Positions 2,469 to 62,631 of a DNA stretch of 64,000 nucleotides are shown here, piece by piece. The stretch is taken from positions 1-64,000 of the forward strand of contig JACMLM010000064.1 in assembly GCA_014379595.1 (NCBI GenBank). The letters are read 5' to 3'. Position numbers and translations under genes: made by a program. This stretch comes from Anaerolineales bacterium. Its GTDB lineage: Bacteria; Chloroflexota; Anaerolineae; Anaerolineales; Villigracilaceae. Position 1 is the first letter of the stretch; each line of letters begins with the position of its first letter. The notes under the pieces were generated by a model, which saw only the letters and a list, made by a program, of their open reading frames with translations, did no database searches and was not told the origin of the DNA.

Positions 2469-3917
2469 GTGAAAACCGTGAACTCAAAACAAAATTTCAA
2501 AACAGACCTGATTGCACTAAGTCATCCATTGACTTTAGTAAGTATTTTAGTTTTGCTCATCAATGATCATGTTTTGAAAGTGTATGCGCCATCCATATTA
2601 ACGGGAAAAATAAGTGATTTTGCAGGGCTATTTTTCTTTCCTATTTTATTAAGTGCAATTCTAAACTTGATTTTCAAGTCATTAAATCTACAGGCACGGC
2701 AGGTTTCTATTGCATCATTTGGTTTTACAGCCATTTGGTTTATTTTGATTAAGACAATTCCATTTTTCAATAATTTCACTGAATCGGTTTTGTCAGTTCA
2801 AATCATTCGCGACCCAACTGACTTAATGGCACTGGTTATGTTTTTGCCTGCATGGAAGTTGAGAGCGAGTATTGAAGATCAAAAAGAAGTAAAAGTTCAA
2901 AAATTATCTTACGTGATGTTATGCTTTGCGTCATTGGCTGCTTTGGCAACAAGTCCTGCTTATACTCCAACCATTTACAATCTTATTGTTCACAAAAATA
3001 TAATCTATGCCGAGTTTGATGAAGGCTATTTCTTCTATAGTACGGATGGTGGAAAAAACTGGGAAGAAGTTGATTTTGAACTTCCATCACAAGTCACTGA
3101 GCAAGCAGGGAAATATCCAGAATTACCTTTTACATTATGTCTGCCAGAAAAGCCAGATATTTGTTATCAAACAGGAGAGGAAACTATCCTTGAATCTCAG
3201 GATGGCGGGAAAATATGGGTTACTAGTTGGGGTTTTCCTTTGGGAAGGATGCAATTCTTCAATCGTATTTCTCAATATAATGATATAGGACCTTATGATT
3301 TAGCCTATATCGAGTTAAGTGGAGAATACACTATTAGTGCTGCAATGGGTACTGGAGGTATTCTTCTAAAAACAAAAAATAACGCATGGGAGTCAATTGA
3401 AGTTAATTACGCGGGTCCAATTTATTTCAATGCAAAGAGTTTTACAGAAGCAAAAAATAGTGTGGACAGAGAATTTCAAATATTTTGCTTTACCTTGTTT
3501 GTCTTTTTGTATATCAACATATTGGCAAATACTAAGAAACGAAATACTTTAGGGCGTAAACTATTAATTGCACTACCACTACTTTCCGTTGCAGCAAGTA
3601 TTCTTGGGTTAGCTTTTGCAAATATTCTATACCCAATAATGGGTTTATTACTTTTCGTATTTGTTTTAATGATTGTTCTCTTAATATTCCTAGAGTTATT
3701 CACAAATACAAACAAAAGAGCAAAAGCAAACTTGATTCCGCTTGCTATCATCACTTTGGCATCTTACAGTTTATTTATTCTTTGGGCGTATGGCATAATT
3801 CCCGTTTATGAAATAGCACAATGGATCACAATAGGTTTGCATGTCTTTCTCTTACTATGGATTATCTATCCACCTATCAAAGAAGTTATTCAAACAAAAC
3901 GCACCCTGCCTGAATGA
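2469..3917 (+). CDS. multi-pass membrane protein with Asp-box (BNR-like) insert
   Basis: Function not known. The first 140 residues hold several hydrophobic helices and the conserved-looking stretches NDHVLK and LTGKISDFAGLFFFP. The middle (about residues 185-265) carries two Asp-box motifs, STDGGKNW and SQDGGKIW, as in sialidase and photosystem assembly-type beta-propellers, and probably faces outward. The C-terminal 150 residues contain five or so more helices. Start codon is uncertain: GTG 2469 is given; GTG 2478 has a TAAAGT -10-like box seven bases upstream and would fit a leaderless start. It is AT-rich compared with its neighbours, which may mean transfer. It stands alone between recF and the nucleoside cluster. 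Confidence 0.75.
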   Translation: MKTVNSKQNFKTDLIALSHPLTLVSILVLLINDHVLKVYAPSILTGKISDFAGLFFFPILLSAILNLIFKSLNLQARQVSIASFGFTAIWFILIKTIPFFNNFTESVLSVQIIRDPTDLMALVMFLPAWKLRASIEDQKEVKVQKLSYVMLCFASLAALATSPAYTPTIYNLIVHKNIIYAEFDEGYFFYSTDGGKNWEEVDFELPSQVTEQAGKYPELPFTLCLPEKPDICYQTGEETILESQDGGKIWVTSWGFPLGRMQFFNRISQYNDIGPYDLAYIELSGEYTISAAMGTGGILLKTKNNAWESIEVNYAGPIYFNAKSFTEAKNSVDREFQIFCFTLFVFLYINILANTKKRNTLGRKLLIALPLLSVAASILGLAFANILYPIMGLLLFVFVLMIVLLIFLELFTNTNKRAKANLIPLAIITLASYSLFILWAYGIIPVYEIAQWITIGLHVFLLLWIIYPPIKEVIQTKRTLPE

Positions 3918-3919
3918 AG

Positions 3920-3925
3920 TAAAAT
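3920..3925 (+). promoter_or_regulatory. -10 box for leaderless ribokinase transcript
   Basis: TAAAAT lies seven bases before the ATG at 3933 and no Shine-Dalgarno sequence is present, so transcription would begin at or next to the start codon. No clear -35 box. Confidence 0.5.
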
Positions 3926-3932
3926 ACTGCCC

Positions 3933-4868
3933 ATGCCCGATATTCTCGTCGTTGGTTCGCTGAATGCAGACCTAGTCGTTAAGTCACCACGCTTTCCTCA
4001 ACCGGGCGAAACCATCAGCGGCGAGGACCTGCAGATCATTCCCGGGGGCAAAGGAGCCAATCAAGCAGTAGCCGCAGCGAGACAAGGTGCAAGTGTAGCG
4101 ATGGTTGGACGAGTGGGGAAAGATAGTTTTGGCCCGTTTCTAGTAGACAGTTTAAAATCAAATCAAGTAAATATAAAAAATGTGATTGACACCGAATCAG
4201 CAACAGGGACGGCCATCATCATTGTGGATACAAATGGACAGAACAGTATTGTTCTTTCGGCGGGCGCAAATGGAAAAATGTCATCACAAGATATAGATGC
4301 CATTGATATTGATGCAAAAATTTTATTGTTACAACTTGAAATTCCATTGGAAACTGTAATTTATGCTGCGAAGTGGGGAAAGCAAAAAGGCATGATCGTT
4401 GTTTTGAATCCTGCACCTGCTCGCGAATTACCCGATGAATTAATTGCAAATATAGATTACATTACTCCCAATGAAACAGAACTGAGTCTATTAACAGATA
4501 GTTCTGTAACAGATGAAGCCAGTTCAGAGCAGGCGGCGCAAGTTTTATTACAACGAGGGGCAAAAAATGTAATTGTGACTCTAGGAAGTAGAGGCGCGTT
4601 GATCGTCAATGCCTCAAACACAACTCATGTAGATTCATATAAAGTAGATGTCGTGGATACAACAGCTGCAGGTGACTCTTTCATTGGCGGATTGGCATAT
4701 AAACTTTTGGAGTCGGACAGCAAGCTGTCCGCGCAAGAGCAAGCTCTTGCACTCCAGAAAGCAGTTAAATATGCCAATGCTTGCGGCGCGTTAGCAGTCA
4801 CAAAGTTTGGTGCACAACCATCATTACCAACAAAAGAAGAAGTAGAAAGGTTCACGTCATTATTATGA
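3933..4868 (+). CDS. rbsK: ribokinase (PfkB family)
   Basis: Phosphorylates ribose to ribose-5-phosphate in the cytoplasm. The N-terminal GSLNADLV and PGGKGANQA motifs and the C-terminal anion-hole motif DTTAAGDSF are all present, with the catalytic Asp in AAGD. It is 311 residues, a normal length. Between LAYKLLE and AVKYANA there is an extra stretch (about residues 260-275) encoded by a double-hairpin repeat at 4708-4756, in frame and apparently tolerated. The gene overlaps the following nucleoside hydrolase by ATGA, so ribose released by that enzyme is the likely substrate. Other PfkB sugar or nucleoside kinases are possible, but the context favours ribokinase. Confidence 0.9.
   Translation: MPDILVVGSLNADLVVKSPRFPQPGETISGEDLQIIPGGKGANQAVAAARQGASVAMVGRVGKDSFGPFLVDSLKSNQVNIKNVIDTESATGTAIIIVDTNGQNSIVLSAGANGKMSSQDIDAIDIDAKILLLQLEIPLETVIYAAKWGKQKGMIVVLNPAPARELPDELIANIDYITPNETELSLLTDSSVTDEASSEQAAQVLLQRGAKNVIVTLGSRGALIVNASNTTHVDSYKVDVVDTTAAGDSFIGGLAYKLLESDSKLSAQEQALALQKAVKYANACGALAVTKFGAQPSLPTKEEVERFTSLL
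4708..4756. repeat. in-frame double-hairpin repeat (TGGAGT...ACTCCA)
   Basis: Outer arms TGGAGT (4708-4713) and ACTCCA (4751-4756) enclose two perfect hairpins with two-base AA loops: GGACAGC/GCTGTCC and GCAAGAGC/GCTCTTGC. The whole can fold as a three-way junction. It lies inside rbsK without breaking the frame. A second element of the same design is at 19558-19614 inside another gene. Confidence 0.8.
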
Positions 4869-5821
4869 CCCCAACAAAAATTATTATTGACACCGACCCC
4901 GGTGTAGACGATGCACTTGCCTTTCTCCTCGCCCTTGCCTCACCAGAGATCAAACTCGAAGCGTTGACCAGTGTGCATGGCAATATTGGTATTGAGAAAA
5001 CCACGCGCAATGCATTGGCCGTTTTAGAACTTGCCAACGCAAGTCATATCCCTGTTGCCCGCGGATGTTCACTTCCGCTTGTGAGTGCGCTGAATACGAC
5101 AGGGGATGTAGTGCATGGCTCAAGTGGAATTGGTAATTCAAAGTTACCCGAGCCAAAGTCACAGCCTATTGAGCAGCACGCCATTGATTATTTGATCGAA
5201 AGAATTTTAGCTGAACCAAACCAGATCAGTGTATTCCCTATTGGCCCGTTGACCAACGTAGCGCTTGCGATCCGCAAAGAACCGCGTATTGTGCAGGCTT
5301 TGAAAGAACTTGTCATCATGGGCGGCTCGATCAAACAAGGCGGCAACGCTTCTCCATTGGCTGAGTTCAATATATTCGCAGACCCACAGGCGGCGCATAT
5401 TGTTTTTCATTCAGGTATTCCGATCACATTGATCCCATTGGATGTCACTCACAAATGCCTACTCACTTCTGAAGATGTCGAAAAATTAAATAAGATCAGT
5501 TCCCCCATTGCGCGTTTCGTCCGCGATGCGACTGAAGTTTATATGGATTTTTATAGACAGCATGAAATCTTCGATGGTTGTGCTTTGCATGACCCTTTAA
5601 CACTTGCCACCATCATTGCACCCGAATTGTTCACCTTCGAAGAACATTATGTGGATGTAGATATTTCCACTGGTATATCCACTGGAAATACGTTTGCTGA
5701 TCTCATGAAAATATCGAAAAAGCCTGCCAATATGAAAGTTGCAATGGATGTGCGCGGACGCGACTTCATAAATTTATTCCTTGAAAGGATGGAAACGCTT
5801 AGTCGTTCCATTTCAGAATAA
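4865..5821 (+). CDS. nucleoside hydrolase, IU-NH family (His type)
   Basis: Splits ribonucleosides into base and ribose. The calcium and ribose binding motif DTDPGVDDA is at the N-terminus (residues 9-17), and the C-terminal catalytic motif reads CALHDPLTLA with His near residue 242, as in inosine-uridine nucleoside hydrolases. The ATG at 4865 overlaps the ribokinase stop (ATGA), giving 318 residues, the usual size; a longer open frame upstream only overlaps rbsK. The next gene is a paralog three bases downstream. Base preference (purine or pyrimidine) cannot be read from sequence. The partner kinase upstream and ECF transporter downstream point to nucleoside salvage. Confidence 0.92.
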   Translation: MTPTKIIIDTDPGVDDALAFLLALASPEIKLEALTSVHGNIGIEKTTRNALAVLELANASHIPVARGCSLPLVSALNTTGDVVHGSSGIGNSKLPEPKSQPIEQHAIDYLIERILAEPNQISVFPIGPLTNVALAIRKEPRIVQALKELVIMGGSIKQGGNASPLAEFNIFADPQAAHIVFHSGIPITLIPLDVTHKCLLTSEDVEKLNKISSPIARFVRDATEVYMDFYRQHEIFDGCALHDPLTLATIIAPELFTFEEHYVDVDISTGISTGNTFADLMKISKKPANMKVAMDVRGRDFINLFLERMETLSRSISE

Positions 5822-5823
5822 GA

Positions 5824-6771
5824 ATGCCAAAACATATTATTTTAGACACAGATCCCGGCATTGATGACTCACTCGCCATTTTGCTCGCTCTTGCCTCGCC
5901 CGAGCTTGCTCTTGATGGAATCAGCACAATCCACGGGAATGTATCCACCGCGCAAACGACGACGAATGCACTTTCGATTTTAGAGCTTGCGAATGCAAGT
6001 CATGTCCCCGTTTACAAAGGCTGTGACCTGCCGCTTGTAAAAGAATCTCTGCTCAGCCCAGAGACTCATGGAGATACAGGCTTGGGGTACGCAAAACTGT
6101 CAGCACCGCAAGCGCAGGCTCAGGCGCAGCACGCATGCGATTTTCTGATAGAGAAGATCATGTCTTCGCCAGATGAAATCACATTGGTGGCAATTGGTCC
6201 GCTTACAAATGTCGCCCTTGCGATTCGTAAAGAGCCACATATCATCCAGAAAGTAAAAGAAGTATTGATCATGGGCGGGGCGATCAGACATCAAGGCAAC
6301 ACCACACCGTTGGCTGAGTTTAATACGTATGTAGACCCGCACGCCGCGCATATTGTATTTCATTCAGGAATGCCGATCATCCTTACGCCATTGGATGTGA
6401 CTTATCAATGTATCTTTTTAAAAGAAGACCTGGATAGATTGTTAAAGATCGATTCGCCGATCACAAAATTCATTTCAGATGCGACACGTTTTTACATGGA
6501 ATTTCATGATGAATATCAAAAGATAGATGGCTGTGTGATCAATGATCCGATGACCTTGGCATTGACCTTCATGCCTGAAATTTGCGATTATGAAGAACTT
6601 TATGTAGATGTGGATATTTCAACAGGCGTGGGGCTTGGAAATACATTTGCAGATTTTTATAACTACGATAAAAAGGCTCCAAATATGAAGGTAGCGCTTG
6701 GCGTAAGGCCGCGCATGTTCATGGAGCTGTTTTTAGAAAGGATGGAAAAACTGGCAAAGTCTATTTCGTGA
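5824..6771 (+). CDS. nucleoside hydrolase, IU-NH family (Asn type)
   Basis: Second member of the family, 315 residues, clearly a tandem paralog of the preceding gene (shared blocks such as VDVDIST and PLAEFN). The DTDPGIDDS motif is intact, but the C-terminal motif reads CVINDPMTLA: the catalytic His is replaced by Asn at about residue 240. IU-NH members with IND in place of HD are known in other bacteria, so this is probably a distinct specificity class and not a dead copy. Together the two enzymes may cover different nucleosides. It ends 71 bases before the ECF S component. Confidence 0.92.
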   Translation: MPKHIILDTDPGIDDSLAILLALASPELALDGISTIHGNVSTAQTTTNALSILELANASHVPVYKGCDLPLVKESLLSPETHGDTGLGYAKLSAPQAQAQAQHACDFLIEKIMSSPDEITLVAIGPLTNVALAIRKEPHIIQKVKEVLIMGGAIRHQGNTTPLAEFNTYVDPHAAHIVFHSGMPIILTPLDVTYQCIFLKEDLDRLLKIDSPITKFISDATRFYMEFHDEYQKIDGCVINDPMTLALTFMPEICDYEELYVDVDISTGVGLGNTFADFYNYDKKAPNMKVALGVRPRMFMELFLERMEKLAKSIS

Positions 6772-6787
6772 CCTTTGAAAATAAACG

Positions 6788-6808
6788 GTGTTATTATATA
6801 AGTAACAC
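6788..6808. promoter_or_regulatory. palindromic operator-like site before the ECF S gene
   Basis: GTGTTA (6788-6793) and TAACAC (6803-6808) flank a nine-base AT-only core containing TTATATA, which could serve as a -10 box. A repressor bound here would cover the promoter of the S component. No regulator gene is nearby, so the binding protein is unknown. Confidence 0.4.
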
Positions 6809-6842
6809 AATTCATTCTTAATTTATCTTTCTTGGAGGAAGC

Positions 6843-7532
6843 ATGCTAGACAAAATTAAAAGCAATTTCACTACTCAAACCTGGGTGCTTATCCCTATTG
6901 CCATCGCAATTAACGTTGCAATCGGACAGCTGGTATTAGTGCTCAAATTGCCAGTGTTTTTGGACTCCATTGGTACAGTGCTCGTCGCCGTTTTGTGCGG
7001 ACCCTGGGCTGGCGCATTAACAGGCGCGCTTTCCAATGTAATTTGGGGAATTGCATTTGACCCGGGTGCTTTCCCATGGTGGCCTGTAGCTTTCTTTATT
7101 GGTTTCATGGCTGGCAAGATGGCAGAGTGGGGCTTCTTCAAATCCTGGTGGAAGGTGGTCGTCACCGGAATTGTCATCGCTCTCACAGCTGCAATCATCT
7201 CAACCCCAATTTCTGTATATCTCTTTGGCGGTATTACAGCCAGTGGTTCATCATTCATCACAGCCTATCTTCTCCAAACAGGACAAGGCATCTGGTCTGC
7301 AGTAGTAAGCACAGCCTTCCTCACCGAACCTGTGGATAAGATCACCACTGCCATGCTTGCCTTTGCCATTATCCAGGGCTTGCCCAAACGCACAGTTGCC
7401 GGATATCCGAAAGCAGATCAAGTTGAAATTGAAGGCGGCTCAGACAAGAATCAGATGTACATTGCCATTGGTATTGTCGTGGTGCTGATATTATTCGCAG
7501 CTTTTCTGCTGCGCAGCATTCTCGGCGGATAA
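6843..7532 (+). CDS. ECF transporter S component, predicted nucleoside specificity
   Basis: Integral membrane substrate-binding subunit of an energy-coupling factor importer. About 229 residues with six predicted helices and the small-residue-rich loop GPWAGALTGALSNV typical of S components; the start is fixed by a strong GGAGGA ribosome site. The EcfT and two ATPase genes follow after a terminator at 7554. The residues do not tell me the ligand. Because ribokinase and two nucleoside hydrolases lie directly upstream, I infer ribonucleosides (or ribose) as cargo. This is an inference from context, not a family assignment. Confidence 0.85.
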   Translation: MLDKIKSNFTTQTWVLIPIAIAINVAIGQLVLVLKLPVFLDSIGTVLVAVLCGPWAGALTGALSNVIWGIAFDPGAFPWWPVAFFIGFMAGKMAEWGFFKSWWKVVVTGIVIALTAAIISTPISVYLFGGITASGSSFITAYLLQTGQGIWSAVVSTAFLTEPVDKITTAMLAFAIIQGLPKRTVAGYPKADQVEIEGGSDKNQMYIAIGIVVVLILFAAFLLRSILGG

Positions 7533-7553
7533 ATATTTAATACTATCGTCATT

Positions 7554-7588
7554 ACAAAAGGGCATGGCTCGCAGCCATGCCCTTTTGT
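7554..7588 (+). terminator. rho-independent terminator after the S component
   Basis: Perfect 16-base stem (arms start ACAAAAGGGCATGG and end CCATGCCCTTTTGT) with a three-base CGC loop. It separates the S gene from the EcfT-A-A' genes, which have their own promoter five bases later. Confidence 0.85.
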
Positions 7589-7592
7589 CGTT

Positions 7593-7598
7593 TATAAT
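7593..7598 (+). promoter_or_regulatory. -10 box for leaderless ecfT transcript
   Basis: Consensus TATAAT eight bases before the ATG at 7607, directly after the terminator. No Shine-Dalgarno sequence. Suggests that the energising module is transcribed separately from the S component. Confidence 0.6.
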
Positions 7599-7606
7599 CC
7601 CAGCTT

Positions 7607-8383
7607 ATGCATGAACGCCTTTCCTTTCATATAAAAAGAGACAGCGTACTTCATCGTCTCAACCCGTTGACAAAACTAACTTTGGTTTTGGCGTTGATCA
7701 TGGTTGCATTTACCAGTCCATGGTATTGGACTCCCCATCTTTTATTTCTCTTCGTAATCATCCCATTAAGTTTTATTGGAAAAGTATTTCGCGAGTTTTT
7801 TTTCGCGGCCACGCGCCTCATTCTCCCTGCGGCTGGATTTCTGTTTCTGATGCAAGCCTTCTTCCAGCCGATCGGCGAGCATGTGATCTTCAAGTTTTAT
7901 TTTCTGGATATCACACAGGAAAGCCTGATGTTTGCATTCAAAAATGCAATGCGTGTGATCGTAATGGTTTCATCATTTACACTTTTTCTTCTCACTACCC
8001 ACCCCAGTGAATTAATGTCAGATCTTACCCGCCGCGGATTGCCTGGTCAATTTGCTTATGTGATTATCTCAACACTTCAGATCCTGCCGCAGATCCAATC
8101 CAAATCGCAGACCATTATCTCTGCCCAGCGTTCACGAGGGCTGGATACCGAAGGTAATTTTTTCAAACGAGCGGGTTCACTGGTTCCGCTTGTAGGTCCG
8201 CTTGTTTTTGGTTCACTTGTTGAAGTAGAGGAAAGAGCGATTGCTATTGAAGCTCGCGGCTTTACATCTAAATCTATAAAAACTTCTCTGTATGAAATTG
8301 CAGATACATCCTTTGAGAAGATCATTCGCTGGGGCCTTATTATCATTATTATTCTTTCCATTGTGTTAAATATATGGCTTTAG
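7607..8383 (+). CDS. ecfT: ECF transporter transmembrane protein EcfT
   Basis: Scaffold membrane subunit that links the S component to the two ATPases. 258 residues with about five helices. The coupling helices are visible as AQRSRGLD near residue 175 and IEARGFTS near residue 215, the two short Arg-containing motifs that dock on the ATPases. It overlaps ecfA1 by ten bases. As a stand-alone T-A-A' set it may serve the nearby S component only, or several S components elsewhere in the genome. Confidence 0.92.
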   Translation: MHERLSFHIKRDSVLHRLNPLTKLTLVLALIMVAFTSPWYWTPHLLFLFVIIPLSFIGKVFREFFFAATRLILPAAGFLFLMQAFFQPIGEHVIFKFYFLDITQESLMFAFKNAMRVIVMVSSFTLFLLTTHPSELMSDLTRRGLPGQFAYVIISTLQILPQIQSKSQTIISAQRSRGLDTEGNFFKRAGSLVPLVGPLVFGSLVEVEERAIAIEARGFTSKSIKTSLYEIADTSFEKIIRWGLIIIIILSIVLNIWL

Positions 8384-9213
8384 TAAATCTTCAAAACGTA
8401 ACCTACAAATATCCGCTTACAAAAACACCCGCTTTGCAAAATATAAATTTGCAAATTAAGGAAGGTGAATTTGTTGCGGTTGTCGGAGCAAACGGCGCGG
8501 GTAAATCCACGCTTTGCTATACGCTTGCTGGTTTTGCGCCGCACTTTTTCAAAGGTGAAATGAGTGGCAGTATTGAAGTGGCAGGCAAAGAGTCCAGTAA
8601 ATCCACTTTGGATGAATGGGTCTTGAATGTTGGCCTCGCGTTTCAAAATCCATTCAATCAGATCAGCGGCGCAAAATATACAGTCTTTGAAGAGATTGCG
8701 TTTGGATTGGAAAATATTGGTGTGCCACGCGATGAAATGAAAGACCGAGTGAATGATGCTCTGGCTCTGACAGGAATTACGGATTTAGCGGATCGCTCGC
8801 CTTATTCATTATCCGGCGGTCAACAACAACGCGTCGCTCTGACCTCGATCCTGGTTATGCAACCCAAGCTGCTCGTGCTCGACGAACCGACCTCACAAAT
8901 GGACCCCATCGGCACGCGCGAAGTCTTCAGCGTGATCCGCAAAATGGCAGAAGGCGGCATGACGGTTGTGATGGTAGAACATAAAATGGAATGGATCGCA
9001 CAATTTGCAGATCGAGTCATCGCATTGAAAGATGGAAGTATTCTGTTGGAAGGCAAACCCGGTGAAGTATTAACTTCTGATGTTTTAGCTGAAAATGGAT
9101 TTGGTATTTCACGCTATACATCCACAGCAAGAGAAGCAAAAAAACAAGGATTGTGGAAGAAAGAGAAATTACCGGTTACTTTAGATGAAGCTGTGGAAGG
9201 ATTTAAGAAATGA
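8374..9213 (+). CDS. ecfA1: ECF transporter ATPase, canonical subunit
   Basis: Cytoplasmic ABC ATPase powering ECF import. Walker A GANGAGKST, Q-loop AFQNPFNQ, signature LSGGQQQR near residue 147, Walker B LLVLDEPT and H-loop VEHK are all intact in 279 residues. It overlaps ecfT by ten bases and ecfA2 by four. Its signature motif pairs with the Walker A of ecfA2, forming the site expected to hydrolyse ATP. Confidence 0.93.
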   Translation: MALVNLQNVTYKYPLTKTPALQNINLQIKEGEFVAVVGANGAGKSTLCYTLAGFAPHFFKGEMSGSIEVAGKESSKSTLDEWVLNVGLAFQNPFNQISGAKYTVFEEIAFGLENIGVPRDEMKDRVNDALALTGITDLADRSPYSLSGGQQQRVALTSILVMQPKLLVLDEPTSQMDPIGTREVFSVIRKMAEGGMTVVMVEHKMEWIAQFADRVIALKDGSILLEGKPGEVLTSDVLAENGFGISRYTSTAREAKKQGLWKKEKLPVTLDEAVEGFKK

Positions 9214-10004
9214 AGATCGAAATTAACGACCTTCGTTTCACTTATCCTACAGGGCTGGAAGCATTACAGGGAATTTCACTCACCATTGAAGCGGGCGAGC
9301 AGGTTGCTATCGTGGGTCAGAATGGTGCAGGGAAAACTACTCTTGTAAGACATTTCAACGGATTACTGCAACCCAGTTCAGGATCGGTTTTGATCGGTGA
9401 GTGGGATACAAAAAAACATTCAGTAGCAAAGCTCGCATCACGAGTCGGGTATGTCTTTCAAAACCCTGATGAACAATTATTTTCAAAAGATGTAGGTACA
9501 GAGATAAGGTTTGGGCCGCGTAATTTGGGTTATTCAAAAGAGAAAATAGATGAGCTGGTCACGCGTGCGTTGTCGCTGACAGAATTAAGTGACAAGACCG
9601 ATACCAATCCTTATGACCTTTCCCCTACATGGCGCAAGATGGCTGCACTCGCATCTGTGATCGCGATGGATACACCGATTGTTATTTTCGATGAACCCAC
9701 AACGGGACAGGATGCGGTCAACGTGGCACGCATTGCAAATGTCATTGCTGAGTTACGCAAAGAAGGCAAGACAGTTATTACGATCACTCATGATATTGAT
9801 TTCTGTGCAGAAAATTTTGATCGCGTGATCGCGCTTTCGAATGGGAAAATTTTACTGGATGGGTCCGCACGCGATGTGTTGGGTCAGGAAGAAATCCTTG
9901 CACAAACTTATGTTGACCCGCCCCAATTAACAAGGCTGGGAAAAAGATTGGGGTTAAAAGAAACGGTAAGAAATCAGGATGAATTTTTGAAGGCATTAAA
10001 ATAA
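9210..10004 (+). CDS. ecfA2: ECF transporter ATPase with degenerate signature motif
   Basis: Second ABC ATPase of the ECF module, 264 residues. Walker A GQNGAGKTT, Q-loop VFQNPDEQ, Walker B IVIFDEPT and H-loop ITHD are intact, but the signature LSGGQ is replaced by LSPTW at residues 137-141. In the heterodimer this would spoil the ATP site built with the Walker A of EcfA1, giving one active and one degenerate site. That layout is known from heterodimeric ABC exporters but is not the norm for EcfA pairs. The stop codon abuts a 13-base terminal inverted repeat element. Confidence 0.9.
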   Translation: MKIEINDLRFTYPTGLEALQGISLTIEAGEQVAIVGQNGAGKTTLVRHFNGLLQPSSGSVLIGEWDTKKHSVAKLASRVGYVFQNPDEQLFSKDVGTEIRFGPRNLGYSKEKIDELVTRALSLTELSDKTDTNPYDLSPTWRKMAALASVIAMDTPIVIFDEPTTGQDAVNVARIANVIAELRKEGKTVITITHDIDFCAENFDRVIALSNGKILLDGSARDVLGQEEILAQTYVDPPQLTRLGKRLGLKETVRNQDEFLKALK

Positions 10005-10105
10005 TGTCGTTGCGAGGGCGTATTTGTTCTATGCCCGAAGCAATCTCCTCGTCAAGTTGGGGATTGCTTCGTCGCAAACAGCAAGAGCGCTCCTCGCAAC
10101 GACAT
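10004..10105. repeat. palindromic element with 13-bp terminal inverted repeats, copy 1
   Basis: Ends in ATGTCGTTGCGAG and its exact reverse complement CTCGCAACGACAT, with inner blocks GAAGCAATC and GATTGCTTCGTCGC. The second copy is at 57333-57422. Such elements starting with a 'TTGCGAG' end are widespread non-coding repeats in several phyla. It follows the ecfA2 stop and fills the space to the convergent DUF296 gene; the short open frame inside it is not a gene. Confidence 0.85.
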
Positions 10106-10106
10106 G

Positions 10107-10505
10107 TTATTTTTTATGAACTACCAACTCTTCATACCCTGAATCATTCTCCATCAGTTCACGCTTATAGACAACATCATCAAACGTGGCAATCACAATT
10201 TCAGCTGTAGTATAAATTATGCATCCATCGGCAAAATGCCCGCCAATGGTTTTTCCATCGCCGTCTGAAATAGAAATATGCAAATGCGAACCATTGGTTG
10301 AGATAGTGCCTGTCAAAGAAACTATTTCAAAGTAGCCGTCATACTCATTGTTGTACTCGCGGTTTGCAAGGCGCAATGTAGCGTGTGTAAGACTCCCCAC
10401 GGAGGAAAGCACACACCCTGCTTCAATTTTTTTATCGGTAACAAAAGCTTCAATTGAGTCAAACAAATCCTGCCCGGGCTTTAGTCGAAAAGTATATGCT
10501 TTCAT
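10107..10505 (-). CDS. PPC/DUF296 domain protein
   Basis: Single-domain protein of 132 residues belonging to the PPC (plants and prokaryotes conserved, DUF296) family. Hallmarks are the N-terminal YTFRLKPGQDL, the middle GSLTHATLR and the block GSHLHISISDGDG followed by GGHFADG. These proteins form trimers; in plants the domain sits on AT-hook DNA-binding proteins, while the role of bacterial stand-alone forms is unknown. A possible ribosome site AAGGAT lies before the ATG at 10505. The upstream space contains a double hairpin and the terminator of the PAP2 gene. Confidence 0.85.
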   Translation of the reverse strand: MKAYTFRLKPGQDLFDSIEAFVTDKKIEAGCVLSSVGSLTHATLRLANREYNNEYDGYFEIVSLTGTISTNGSHLHISISDGDGKTIGGHFADGCIIYTTAEIVIATFDDVVYKRELMENDSGYEELVVHKK

Positions 10506-10541
10506 ATTAAATATCCTTGTTGTTATTCAATAAGTAAGTTT

Positions 10542-10587
10542 TTCGGCAGTTGGACTGCCGAACTGTCAGCAGTGCAACTACTGACAG
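10542..10587. repeat. tandem pair of hairpins
   Basis: TTCGGCAGT/ACTGCCGAA around TGG, then CTGTCAG...CTGACAG with one internal mismatch. Same two-hairpin design as the in-frame repeats at 4708 and 19558, but with different arms and no outer TGGAGT pair. Confidence 0.55.
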
Positions 10588-10624
10588 AACAAAGTAAAGA
10601 CTTATGCAAGAAGTCAATTAATTA

Positions 10625-10663
10625 AAAAGACATGGAATGAAGTATCTCATATCCATGTCTTTT
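10625..10663 (-). terminator. terminator of the PAP2 operon
   Basis: Twelve-base stem AAAAGACATGGA/TCCATGTCTTTT with a 15-base loop. Read on the minus strand it follows the PAP2 stop by about 20 bases and runs into a T-rich tract. Confidence 0.7.
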
Positions 10664-10680
10664 GATTTCATAAGATCCAC

Positions 10681-11241
10681 TTACCAGAGCGGGAAACCGA
10701 TCAACGCAGTCAACCAGATGATCATCGGTGGATATATTTGCAGACCAATCAATGCCACAATAATTCCTAAAACCGCGCCTGCTACAACATCGGACAGATA
10801 ATGCACACCCATGGCCACGCGCGCCAAAGCTACCAGTGGCGCCCATATCCATAGAGCAGTAGCAAGCCAGAGCGGAGCAAGAGCCGAGGCTAATACCGCA
10901 ATAAGAAATGCGCGGGCGGCATGCCCCGATGGAAATGAGTGTGGGTCAGAGTTGCGATAAATCCCGCCCCATTCTCCTTTTGGCCTTTCCCTGCGCACAA
11001 GAAACTTAATCGCAAGCACAACACCAGCCAATCCTAAAATACCAAAGAATTCAACTACAGCCCATTGTTTCCATAGCGGACTACTAATGAACCAAAGGAT
11101 AATTAGTGCAACTGCCCAAAACCATGAGTCACCAGAATGTGCAAGGAAGGCAGAAAAATTTCGTAAAAGACCCGGCTTTTCGGCCACACGCAATTGATCC
11201 GAAAATCGGGCATCCAATTCAAGTAAAGGCCGAAGACTCAT
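10681..11241 (-). CDS. PAP2-family membrane phosphatase
   Basis: Type 2 phosphatidic acid phosphatase, 186 residues, about five helices. The three catalytic motifs are visible: KFLVRRERP, PSGHA and RVAMGVHYLSDV, with the two catalytic His outside or at the membrane face. Likely removes phosphate from a lipid phosphate or undecaprenyl diphosphate. It overlaps the upstream NTP transferase gene by four bases (ATGA), so the pair is translationally coupled; the lipid handled by this operon is unknown. Confidence 0.9.
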   Translation of the reverse strand: MSLRPLLELDARFSDQLRVAEKPGLLRNFSAFLAHSGDSWFWAVALIILWFISSPLWKQWAVVEFFGILGLAGVVLAIKFLVRRERPKGEWGGIYRNSDPHSFPSGHAARAFLIAVLASALAPLWLATALWIWAPLVALARVAMGVHYLSDVVAGAVLGIIVALIGLQIYPPMIIWLTALIGFPLW

Positions 11242-60774: not shown

Positions 60775-62490
60775 TTATGGAAGTCTTGTGATGCGGTTTT
60801 GTGGTCCAGGAGGAACAGGTCCACCATAGCTAGCAAAGTAAGCTTCAAATGCATCCGTATCTACAGCACCACCCAAACGGTTAGTTCCCTGCGTCAGGAT
60901 TGGGAAGCTATCACCGCCATCTGCAAGGAAGGAGTTTACTGTTACACGATAGCTGTCTGCTGCATTGATCATCACGCCATTGAGCATGATCGTTGCCGGG
61001 TCTACTTTATCGCAGACCGGACCTGAGGCTTTCCAAGTATAGGTAAAGCCCGCAGACACCTGTAAAATTCGCGCACTCGCTAAGGTACAACCAGCAAACT
61101 GTTCTTCCAGCAATCTTTCAATTTGTGTGCCTGTCAGAGTCATGGTAACCATGCTGTTACCAAACGGCTGGACGGTGAACATTTCGCCATACGTAACGTT
61201 ACCGTCACCTTCTCCTGCAGGACTGCCTGCATATGTCAGGTCTGCGCGAATGCCGCCTGGATTCATAAAGGCGACCACGGCATCACCCAAGCCCGGGTCA
61301 TCGGTTGCTTCAAGCTGACCATCGGCGATCACATCACCTAAAGCTGATTCACCTGCTGTATTGGGTGCACGACTAATATTTGCTGTGATGGAACCGATCA
61401 CACGATTGGCAAGCGGAGCAGCAATTGCGTTGTATTTGGCGAGCAAAGCAGTTAACGGAGCAGCCTTGGGAACAGTACGAGTAACAATCACATTGTTGGC
61501 TGACATGGTTTCCACTTCGCCTGTCGCCCGGCTGATACTTAGATCGATCTTGGTCACCAAACGTCCAAATGAGAATGAGCTAGTCACAATCTTGCCGTCG
61601 ATCACACAGTTATACGGCTGATGAGTATGCCCAGTGATGACTACATCTACTTCATCGTCCAATCGGTTGACGATATCAACAATTGGTCCTGAGATCCCTA
61701 CACAACCATTAGGATTGGTGGTGGCATCGGTTGTGGACTGATCAGCACCCTCATGGATCACGACCACAATCGTCTCAACCTTTTTGTGCTTGAGTTCGGG
61801 AATCAAAGCGTTGACAGTATCAGCCTCATCCAGGAAGTCTAAATCAGAAATGCCAGATGGGGTTACGATCAAAGGTGTGCCTTCGAGTGTCATACCAATG
61901 AAGGCAACTTCAACGTTCTTGTATTTGCGTGTCTTGTATGCTGGGAAAATGGTCTCGCCATTGTCCTCACGTACTACGTTAGCAGCCAGGAATTGGAAGT
62001 CTGCACCCTCAAAACCATCTCCATCCTGACAGCCGTCCACTGGGTGACAGCCACCATTCTGCATACGCATCAATTCCGTCCAGCCTTCGTCGAACTCGTG
62101 ATTACCAACTGCATTGAAGTCCAAACCAATCTCGTTAAAAGCTTCAATGGTTGGCTCATCGTGGAACAATGCAGAAAGCAATGGGCTTGCACCAATCAAA
62201 TCGCCTGCCGAAACGACAACTGTATTAGGGTTAAGAGCACGCAGGTTATCGATATGAGTGGCAAGATATTCAACCCCTCCCGCAACAATATTTGGAGCAG
62301 GGCAACCAGATACTGCTGGAACACACCCTGCACTGCTGGTGGGTGGTTCAAGGTTTCCATGGAAATCATTCAAAGCCAATATCTGCAGTTCTATCGTACC
62401 TGGGGGTTTTGCTTGTACTGTAGAAAATGTCTGGGAGGTTATTATTATGACGAGAGCAATCATACCAAGAGCATAAAGAAACTTCTTCAT
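60775..62490 (-). CDS. secreted bifunctional metallophosphatase/5'-nucleotidase
   Basis: 571 residues from ATG 62490 (AGGAG site). A signal peptide (first 27 residues) is followed by the metallophosphatase domain with LALNDFHGNL, VSAGDLIGAS, GNHEFDEGW and GHTHQPYN, then the 5'-nucleotidase C-terminal domain with MNPGGIRADL and SFLADGGDSFPIL. UshA-like enzymes release nucleosides from nucleotides outside the cytoplasm. Its products are the expected cargo of the nucleoside salvage system at 3.9-10 kb. Confidence 0.93.
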   Translation of the reverse strand: MKKFLYALGMIALVIIITSQTFSTVQAKPPGTIELQILALNDFHGNLEPPTSSAGCVPAVSGCPAPNIVAGGVEYLATHIDNLRALNPNTVVVSAGDLIGASPLLSALFHDEPTIEAFNEIGLDFNAVGNHEFDEGWTELMRMQNGGCHPVDGCQDGDGFEGADFQFLAANVVREDNGETIFPAYKTRKYKNVEVAFIGMTLEGTPLIVTPSGISDLDFLDEADTVNALIPELKHKKVETIVVVIHEGADQSTTDATTNPNGCVGISGPIVDIVNRLDDEVDVVITGHTHQPYNCVIDGKIVTSSFSFGRLVTKIDLSISRATGEVETMSANNVIVTRTVPKAAPLTALLAKYNAIAAPLANRVIGSITANISRAPNTAGESALGDVIADGQLEATDDPGLGDAVVAFMNPGGIRADLTYAGSPAGEGDGNVTYGEMFTVQPFGNSMVTMTLTGTQIERLLEEQFAGCTLASARILQVSAGFTYTWKASGPVCDKVDPATIMLNGVMINAADSYRVTVNSFLADGGDSFPILTQGTNRLGGAVDTDAFEAYFASYGGPVPPGPQNRITRLP

Positions 62491-62631
62491 TTGGATTCTC
62501 CTATATATGCTTATTCTAATAAGGTTACTTTGTAATCGACGGGAAAAACTTAAGCGATAGACGAAAATCATTTGATCTGTAATATGAATGTGATATGAGC
62601 GCGCTTTTCTCCTTTACAGTTATTTACTATA

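Follow-up and report, generated by a model that had tools for sequence, protein, structure and literature searches.

What does an energy-coupling factor (ECF) importer carry when its genes lie among those for nucleoside breakdown? Importers of this kind are known mainly for micronutrients, namely vitamins and trace metals. The question is raised by a gene cluster in a 64,000-nucleotide stretch of DNA, here called the window, from a bacterium of the order Anaerolineales (Chloroflexota; Villigracilaceae; assembly GCA_014379595.1, contig JACMLM010000064.1, positions 1 to 64,000). Between positions 3933 and 10004, genes for a ribokinase, two nucleoside hydrolases (NH1 and NH2), an ECF S component, EcfT, EcfA, and EcfA' lie head to tail, all on the plus strand. 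The reading that we favor, with a probability of roughly 0.58, is that the S-T-A-A' module imports a ribonucleoside for cleavage by NH1 and NH2 and capture of the ribose by the ribokinase, a cargo that we infer from the sequences and their neighbors. In such a pathway, S would bind the ribonucleoside outside the cell, and the EcfT-A-A' motor encoded beside it would use ATP to drive import. NH1 and NH2 would then cut the N-glycosidic bond to give base and ribose, the ribokinase would turn the ribose into ribose-5-phosphate, which feeds the pentose phosphate pathway, and the free base would be either salvaged or excreted. The purpose of the system would be salvage of carbon and bases.

Gene families and the fold of the S component

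The enzymatic half of the cluster is assigned to families by profile. The ribokinase (RbsK, 3933 to 4868) scores 246.6 bits against PF00294 and 355.2 bits against TIGR02152, for which the cut-off is 299.65, while a second ribokinase model, NF008353, is missed at 324 bits against a cut-off of 341. Both hydrolases carry the DTDPGxDD motif and match PF01156 (cut-off 34.2), NH1 (4865 to 5821) with 339.1 bits and NH2 (5824 to 6771) with 336.7 bits, and neither scores above the cut-off of any NCBIfam subtype model. The start of NH1, the ATG at 4865, is set by an ATGA overlap with the ribokinase stop, and two bases separate NH1 from NH2. NH2 in turn adjoins S (6843 to 7532), which has an extra C-terminal helix (residues 201 to 226). 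Next to S are encoded an EcfT (7607 to 8383; the CbiQ-family domain PF02361, 109.4 bits, cut-off 25) and two ATP-binding cassette (ABC) ATPases, as expected of an ECF transporter. EcfA (8374 to 9213) scores 108.1 bits against PF00005 and has the LSGGQ signature; EcfA' (9210 to 10004) scores 96.4 bits against the same family and has LSPTW in place of that signature, which may leave one ATP site degenerate. The more specific models TIGR04520 (EcfA, 244 bits) and TIGR04521 (EcfA', 232 bits) are matched below their cut-offs. The seven genes lie where the initial annotation placed them, and they belong to the families that it named.

The S component is less readily placed. It scores 27.9 bits against PF12822, a mixed family with a cut-off of 30.7. 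Its only NCBIfam match at an E-value of 0.001 is NF045596, the "CD3073 family", whose name gives no ligand, and here it reaches 129.5 bits against a cut-off of 180; five relatives scanned against this model score 121 to 143 bits. An AlphaFold model of S built from 26 sequences has a mean pLDDT of 86.7. When this model is searched with Foldseek, S components take ranks 1 to 13, with a best E-value of 4.3e-3 at probability 1.00 and none below 0.001. With VIA-align they take ranks 1 to 19, with Z scores from 14.6 (4hzu_S) to 10.7; Lnt structures also match, at Z 10.7 and lower, equal to the last S component and below the first 18. The modeled S has the fold of an ECF S component. The initial annotation held that its nucleoside proposal would fall if S belonged to a family with another proven ligand, and in Pfam and NCBIfam no such family scores above its cut-off.

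Neighbors of S in related genomes

Homologs of S are found in 52 of the 396 genomes of the window's class (E-value 1e-8). For the comparison of neighborhoods, 154 S loci, of which 133 are distinct (less than 98.5% identity), were taken with up to about 15 kb around S: the window itself, 53 loci from the remaining 51 S-positive genomes in the class, 80 loci from a pattern scan, and 20 records picked by eye from 52 in a plasmid collection. The pattern-scan loci are the best 80 of 581 relatives and hence biased to near relatives. By S score, the distinct loci fall into a near band (at least 240; 60 loci), a next band (21 loci, 16 of them fully flanked, that is, with 5 kb on both sides of S), and a most distant band (52 loci, 33 fully flanked). 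In the near band, a same-strand hydrolase lies no farther than 4.7 kb from S, in most cases immediately upstream of it, at 54 of the 55 loci with at least 1.2 kb of upstream sequence, and a hydrolase stands beside S in all 37 distinct loci that are fully flanked. Of these 37, 28 also have a ribokinase, 25 an opposite-strand PPC/DUF296 gene, and 9 QPTR. Fully flanked loci of the next band have a same-strand PPC gene in 12 of 16 cases and a hydrolase in 1 of 16; those of the most distant band have a hydrolase in 10 of 33, a downstream PfkB kinase in 8, PPC in 2, and an upstream TGT in 3, or in 5 when all 52 loci of the band are counted. Below about 57% identity, S relatives mostly have neighbors other than a hydrolase, and because these farther relatives mostly have other partners, the wider S family spans more than one cargo. 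Whether homologs of S keep their neighborhood, a check proposed in the initial annotation, therefore has a divided answer: the close loci do, and the farther bands for the most part do not.

Two features of individual loci may be recorded here. At L076 (genome G314, of the window's genus) and L079, the ribokinase-hydrolase cluster is kept and its S falls in a different branch, as though S had been exchanged and the hydrolase retained. At L077 and L080, the S matches are embedded in reading frames 928 and 950 residues long, which may be fusions of S with other parts.

Pairing of S with a hydrolase recurs well outside the class. A Bacillota metagenome-assembled genome (L151) has the order LacI-RbsK-NH-S-T-A-A'-PNP, the last being a PNP-family phosphorylase. 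Enterococcus raffinosus shows two arrangements, S-T-A-A'-MFS-NH-RbsK and S-T-A-A'-NH (L175 and L181); NH-S pairs occur in Lacticaseibacillus paracasei and E. faecalis; and Kaistia (L166) has one hydrolase before S and another two genes after it. Four haloarchaeal plasmid records have two NH genes each around S-T-A, and three of the four adjoin a set of SDR, fumarylacetoacetate-hydrolase-family, and mandelate-racemase-family genes whose makeup suggests pentose oxidation. In two more haloarchaeal loci, L172 and L187, S stands without a hydrolase neighbor, and L172 carries a pair of nucleoside 2-deoxyribosyltransferase genes on the opposite strand. Altogether, the 20 named records of the plasmid collection include 8 with a hydrolase, 3 with PPC upstream, and 3 with a TudS-like gene. 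On a quick tree of 129 S proteins (4 of the 133 distinct ones were left out), the hydrolase label requires 12 changes, at least 7 of these changes being forced by the starred branches, against an average of 41.1 for shuffled labels. The link between S and the hydrolase is real, and it recurs in three bacterial phyla and in haloarchaea.

Presence and absence of the genes agree with this link. Within the window's family, PF01156 is found in 14 of 14 S-positive and 2 of 11 S-negative genomes (Fisher 2.7e-5, relatedness ignored). The window's own genome has only two PF01156 genes (E-value 1e-10), NH1 and NH2, so there is no hydrolase at its two other EcfT loci, the first a CbiMQO set and the second a locus whose S is of riboflavin type. 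Two of the 14 S-positive genomes of the family (G280 and G314) have one further PF01156 gene elsewhere.

A number of observations weigh against import of an ordinary ribonucleoside. Hydrolase neighbors are missing at one near-band locus (L122) and, where at least 1.2 kb of upstream sequence is available, at 20 of 21 loci of the next band and at 37 of 48 of the farthest band; among the 20 plasmid records, 6 have neither a hydrolase nor a PPC nor a TudS-like partner. The S tree is quick and has several long branches, and its count of changes cannot separate gain from loss. NH2 is without the usual histidine, as described below, and the neighborhood does not tell whether the nucleoside is an ordinary one or is modified, as queuosine is. 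Lastly, the solved S components nearest in sequence to the window S are folate ones (E-value about 2e-4), and of five S relatives scanned, four give scores near 20 bits against the folate family TIGR04518, whose cut-off is 60. Judged by sequence, the folate S components are too distant from the window S to indicate its ligand. This distant kinship, together with the other partners of S relatives below about 57% identity, chiefly PPC in the next band, is what one might expect if the ECF system imported an unrelated vitamin, with the hydrolases and ribokinase as neighbors by history only. We regard that explanation as very improbable, as the S-hydrolase pairing recurs across three phyla and haloarchaea with its seven or more tree changes, and S and PF01156 match in presence and absence within the window's family.

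The two hydrolases and the case for a modified nucleoside

NH1 and NH2 differ at one position of the C-terminal catalytic loop. The histidine before DP in NH1 (GCALHDP) aligns with that of RihA (4wr2) and of the IU nucleoside hydrolase 1mas, and NH2 has an asparagine in its place (GCVINDP). Among proteins from distinct loci, asparagine is found at this site in 57 of 58 of the NH2 type and histidine in 26 of 28 of the NH1 type, and near-band loci with a single hydrolase carry the NH2 type. The asparagine is shared by the S-paired hydrolases of E. faecalis, L. paracasei, and the Bacillota metagenome-assembled genome; in other S-paired hydrolases the site is histidine (E. raffinosus), serine (haloarchaea), or proline and histidine (Kaistia). 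In IU nucleoside hydrolases, we take this histidine to be the general acid that protonates the leaving base, and since NH2 has asparagine instead, the two enzymes probably differ in base preference.

The main alternative cargo is suggested by Clostridioides difficile. The C. difficile S component QrtT is reported to serve uptake of preQ1, queuine, and queuosine, and to be encoded in an operon with the hydrolase QueK, which is said to cleave queuosine (PMC11477304, PMC11130926). The initial annotation had set a nucleoside outside the classical vitamin-type ECF substrates it knew; QrtT supplies a precedent for an ECF nucleoside cargo. By analogy, the window S could be a QrtT-like importer of queuosine (or queuine or preQ1) and NH2 a QueK-like hydrolase, with the ribokinase merely disposing of ribose. 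The order of hydrolase then S in the window matches queK-qrtT-queL, the order reported for the operon (PMC11477304). Hydrolases with the asparagine of NH2, as noted, are paired with S in E. faecalis, L. paracasei, and a Bacillota genome too, and a 7-deazapurine has no N7 for a hydrolase histidine to protonate.

Queuosine (Q) pathway genes were counted in 72 genomes of the class, a non-random sample made up of all 52 S-positive genomes and 20 near relatives without S. TGT is matched in 70, QueA exceeds its cut-off in 55, and QueC exceeds its cut-off in 1. Because TGT and QueA are common and QueC is found once, most of these genomes should need to import a Q precursor, and such import looks frequent in the class. 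The window's genome, 95% complete, has TGT and QueA with no match to QueC (E-value 1e-5) and no QPTR, and so should likewise need an imported precursor. QPTR (PF02592) is a known importer of Q precursors (PMC5372724, PMC11130926). It is present in 298 of the 396 class genomes and absent from 20 of 52 S-positive genomes, including that of the window, versus 78 of 344 S-negative ones (p 0.024, relatedness ignored). Loss of QPTR is tied to S only weakly across the class, which counts against queuosine, and QPTR loss was rejected as a strict counterpart of S. QPTR and S are near each other at some loci: among the 60 close loci, 12 have QPTR no more than 6.5 kb from S, and in 6 of the 32 genomes that hold both the two lie within 7 kb, versus 0.12 expected (Poisson, relatedness ignored).

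A further tie to queuosine comes from another branch of S, which TGT directly precedes in five loci (L067, L068, L069, L074, and L075; families f36 and f40). Of the genomes with this arrangement, G093, G113, G132, and G037 have no QueA match, G069 has fragments alone, and none has QPTR; G033 and G066 (f36) also lack QueA and QPTR matches and have TGT located elsewhere. In 8 of 17 TGTs compared, precisely those from f36, f40, and f46, a loop GG-[SN]LG replaces GGL[SA]VGE. In view of TGT specificity, this altered loop could fit a queuine-accepting enzyme, which makes the S branch directly after such a TGT in f36 and f40 a candidate for queuine import and salvage. Organisms in which neither QueA nor QPTR is found could then take up queuine through this TGT-linked branch.

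Other features of the window fit queuosine less well. The TGT loop of its genome is canonical, so queuine would need the lyase QueL to be converted to preQ1. No preQ1 or purine riboswitch reached the Rfam gathering threshold in the window or in the 22 loci scanned from S branches other than its own, a scan from which the other close hydrolase-type loci were left out; the lack of a preQ1 riboswitch, a frequent but dispensable feature of queuosine salvage systems, counts against queuosine. A catabolic role is suggested by the two hydrolases with ribokinase, by the LacI-RbsK-NH-PNP set, and by the haloarchaeal genes, and haloarchaea are not known to use queuosine. We consider salvage of queuosine a serious but less probable role for the window cluster. 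With ordinary nucleosides as cargo, the presence of the ribokinase, of a second hydrolase, of LacI and PNP, and of the haloarchaeal genes is accounted for, and with queuosine that of QPTR and TGT; either way, a nucleoside or its base is implied. The proposal in the initial annotation that S carries nucleosides gains from the hydrolase neighbors of all 37 close loci and from their recurrence, and is tempered in that a modified nucleoside fits partly as well.

Other cargos of this general kind are nicotinamide riboside, a thiolated nucleoside, methylthioadenosine, or another nucleoside-like or ribose-bearing micronutrient, for which the hydrolases would act as salvage enzymes. In Cetobacterium and Enterococcus gilvus (L183 and L185), the neighbor of S genes annotated as CD3073 family is a TudS-related desulfidase, a usual though not demonstrably necessary companion of that family, and in Acetoanaerobium an S relative (L174) follows a protein with a sub-threshold match to PF04463 (23.2 bits, cut-off 34.7). 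Such TudS-like partners suggest a thiolated base or nucleoside, and the asparagine of NH2 might be suited to a base that needs no protonation to leave. For the window cluster we hold a cargo of this kind to be quite improbable, given that the Pfam matches include no desulfidase-like gene among the genes at 3933 to 10505, that the window S stays under the CD3073 cut-off, and that a ribokinase with two hydrolases points to bulk ribonucleosides. No publication on CD3073 was found in the literature search.

Transcription signals, other partners, and known systems

Promoter and terminator scans covered positions 3800 to 10700, and their total of sites was not above that in shuffled sequence. Promoter-like sites number 15 versus 12.2 expected by shuffling, which is weak alone; one is an extended -10-like element, TGTTATTAT, before S on the plus strand (6789 to 6797). 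Of 56 NH2-S gaps from relatives, 19 contain the pattern GTGTT[AG]TnA, which was picked after the gaps had been viewed; shuffled gaps would give 0.16. Terminator-like sites number 4 versus 7.2 expected. One of these, on the plus strand between S and EcfT (7554 to 7588), is a hairpin of 16 pairs with a T-rich end, and the other three have 5 to 8 pairs; a hairpin with a T tract is present in 38 of 50 S-T gaps of close relatives, a count made without a shuffle control. A plus-strand TATAAT at 7593 to 7598, read by eye from the sequence, ends 8 bases before the EcfT start and is a possible promoter of its own; in 22 of 50 relatives TATAAT lies no more than 60 bases upstream of T, again a count without a control. 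Because a hairpin and TATAAT lie between S and EcfT and a -10-like element lies before S, the seven genes may not form one transcript, S going with the hydrolases or alone and T-A-A' forming a separate unit.

Two more genes of the window deserve mention. A convergent neighbor of the cluster on the minus strand (10107 to 10505) encodes a PPC/DUF296 protein (PF03479, 122.2 bits) whose best solved relative is 2hx0. PPC is a frequent partner of the S family, lying within 6.5 kb of S in the 25 close loci counted above and directly upstream of it (PPC-S-T-A-A') in Desulfobulbaceae, Desulfovibrionaceae, Spirochaetaceae, Paracoccus, Salmonella, and Chloroflexota (L147, L149, L150, L152-L155, L157-L159, L162, L163, L171, and L173). 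The second gene, on the minus strand at 60775 to 62571, encodes a 5'-nucleotidase (PF02872 and PF00149) with a signal-peptide-like start. The initial annotation saw in it a possible feeder of the importer; the gene is real, but it lies about 50 kb from the cluster and nothing links the two. Elsewhere in the S family, a PfkB-family kinase follows the ECF genes in 11 loci (L051, L054-L060, L062, L063, and L065; families f38, f34, and f18), and one example, scanned as a possible nucleoside kinase, best matches ribokinase-like sugar kinases at a low score.

An ECF importer as such is of a known kind, and nucleoside cargo has one precedent in queuosine; what may be new here is an S component of unassigned ligand paired with a ribokinase and hydrolase set. 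Tentatively, and at well below even odds, the S proteins gathered may form one broad nucleoside and nucleobase branch of ECF importers in bacteria and haloarchaea, with sub-branches for catabolic ribonucleosides (beside hydrolase and ribokinase genes, as in the window), for queuine (beside the unusual TGT of Chloroflexota that have no intact QueA), and for thiolated bases (beside TudS-like genes). Were this branch confirmed, ECF transport would be a general route for products of nucleic-acid breakdown, beyond vitamins and metals. Ribonucleoside import by the window cluster and its relatives, if true, would give ATP-driven nucleoside uptake to Chloroflexota, several Bacillota, and haloarchaea, in which these proteins are now annotated merely as "ECF transporter S component". 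Among the listed results of searches of the open-licence literature there was no report of an ECF nucleoside importer of this kind, nor of an S component of unassigned ligand paired with a ribokinase and hydrolase set, which does not prove that none exists. A Mycoplasma nucleoside transporter is described in an ABC operon (PMC12838404), in passages where the term "ECF" does not occur.

Among the known systems, the CD3073 S component with its CD3072 TudS-related desulfidase has a similar ECF context, but the partner in the window is a hydrolase and not a desulfidase. The PPC-S-T-A-A' clusters (in Salmonella between epd and tkt, in Paracoccus yeei, and in Desulfobulbaceae) share a homologous S, the ECF module, and a PPC gene with the window; unlike it, they have no hydrolase neighbor. 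QueK-QrtT(-QueL) of C. difficile likewise places a hydrolase beside an ECF S component, so that nucleoside import is followed by hydrolysis; QrtT is assigned to PF12822, which the window S matches below the cut-off. The window adds the adjoining T-A-A', the ribokinase, and the second hydrolase, its genome has the canonical TGT loop, and no preQ1 riboswitch was found in the window; the likeness of S and NH2 to QrtT and QueK is drawn from layout and published description. Finally, nucleosides are also taken up by importers that are not of the ECF type, namely NupC/NupG and the Bmp/Nup ABC systems, and are then converted by RihA/IU-NH hydrolases and ribokinase to base and ribose-5-phosphate. The enzymatic route encoded in the window is like theirs, whereas its import step would be of the ECF type.

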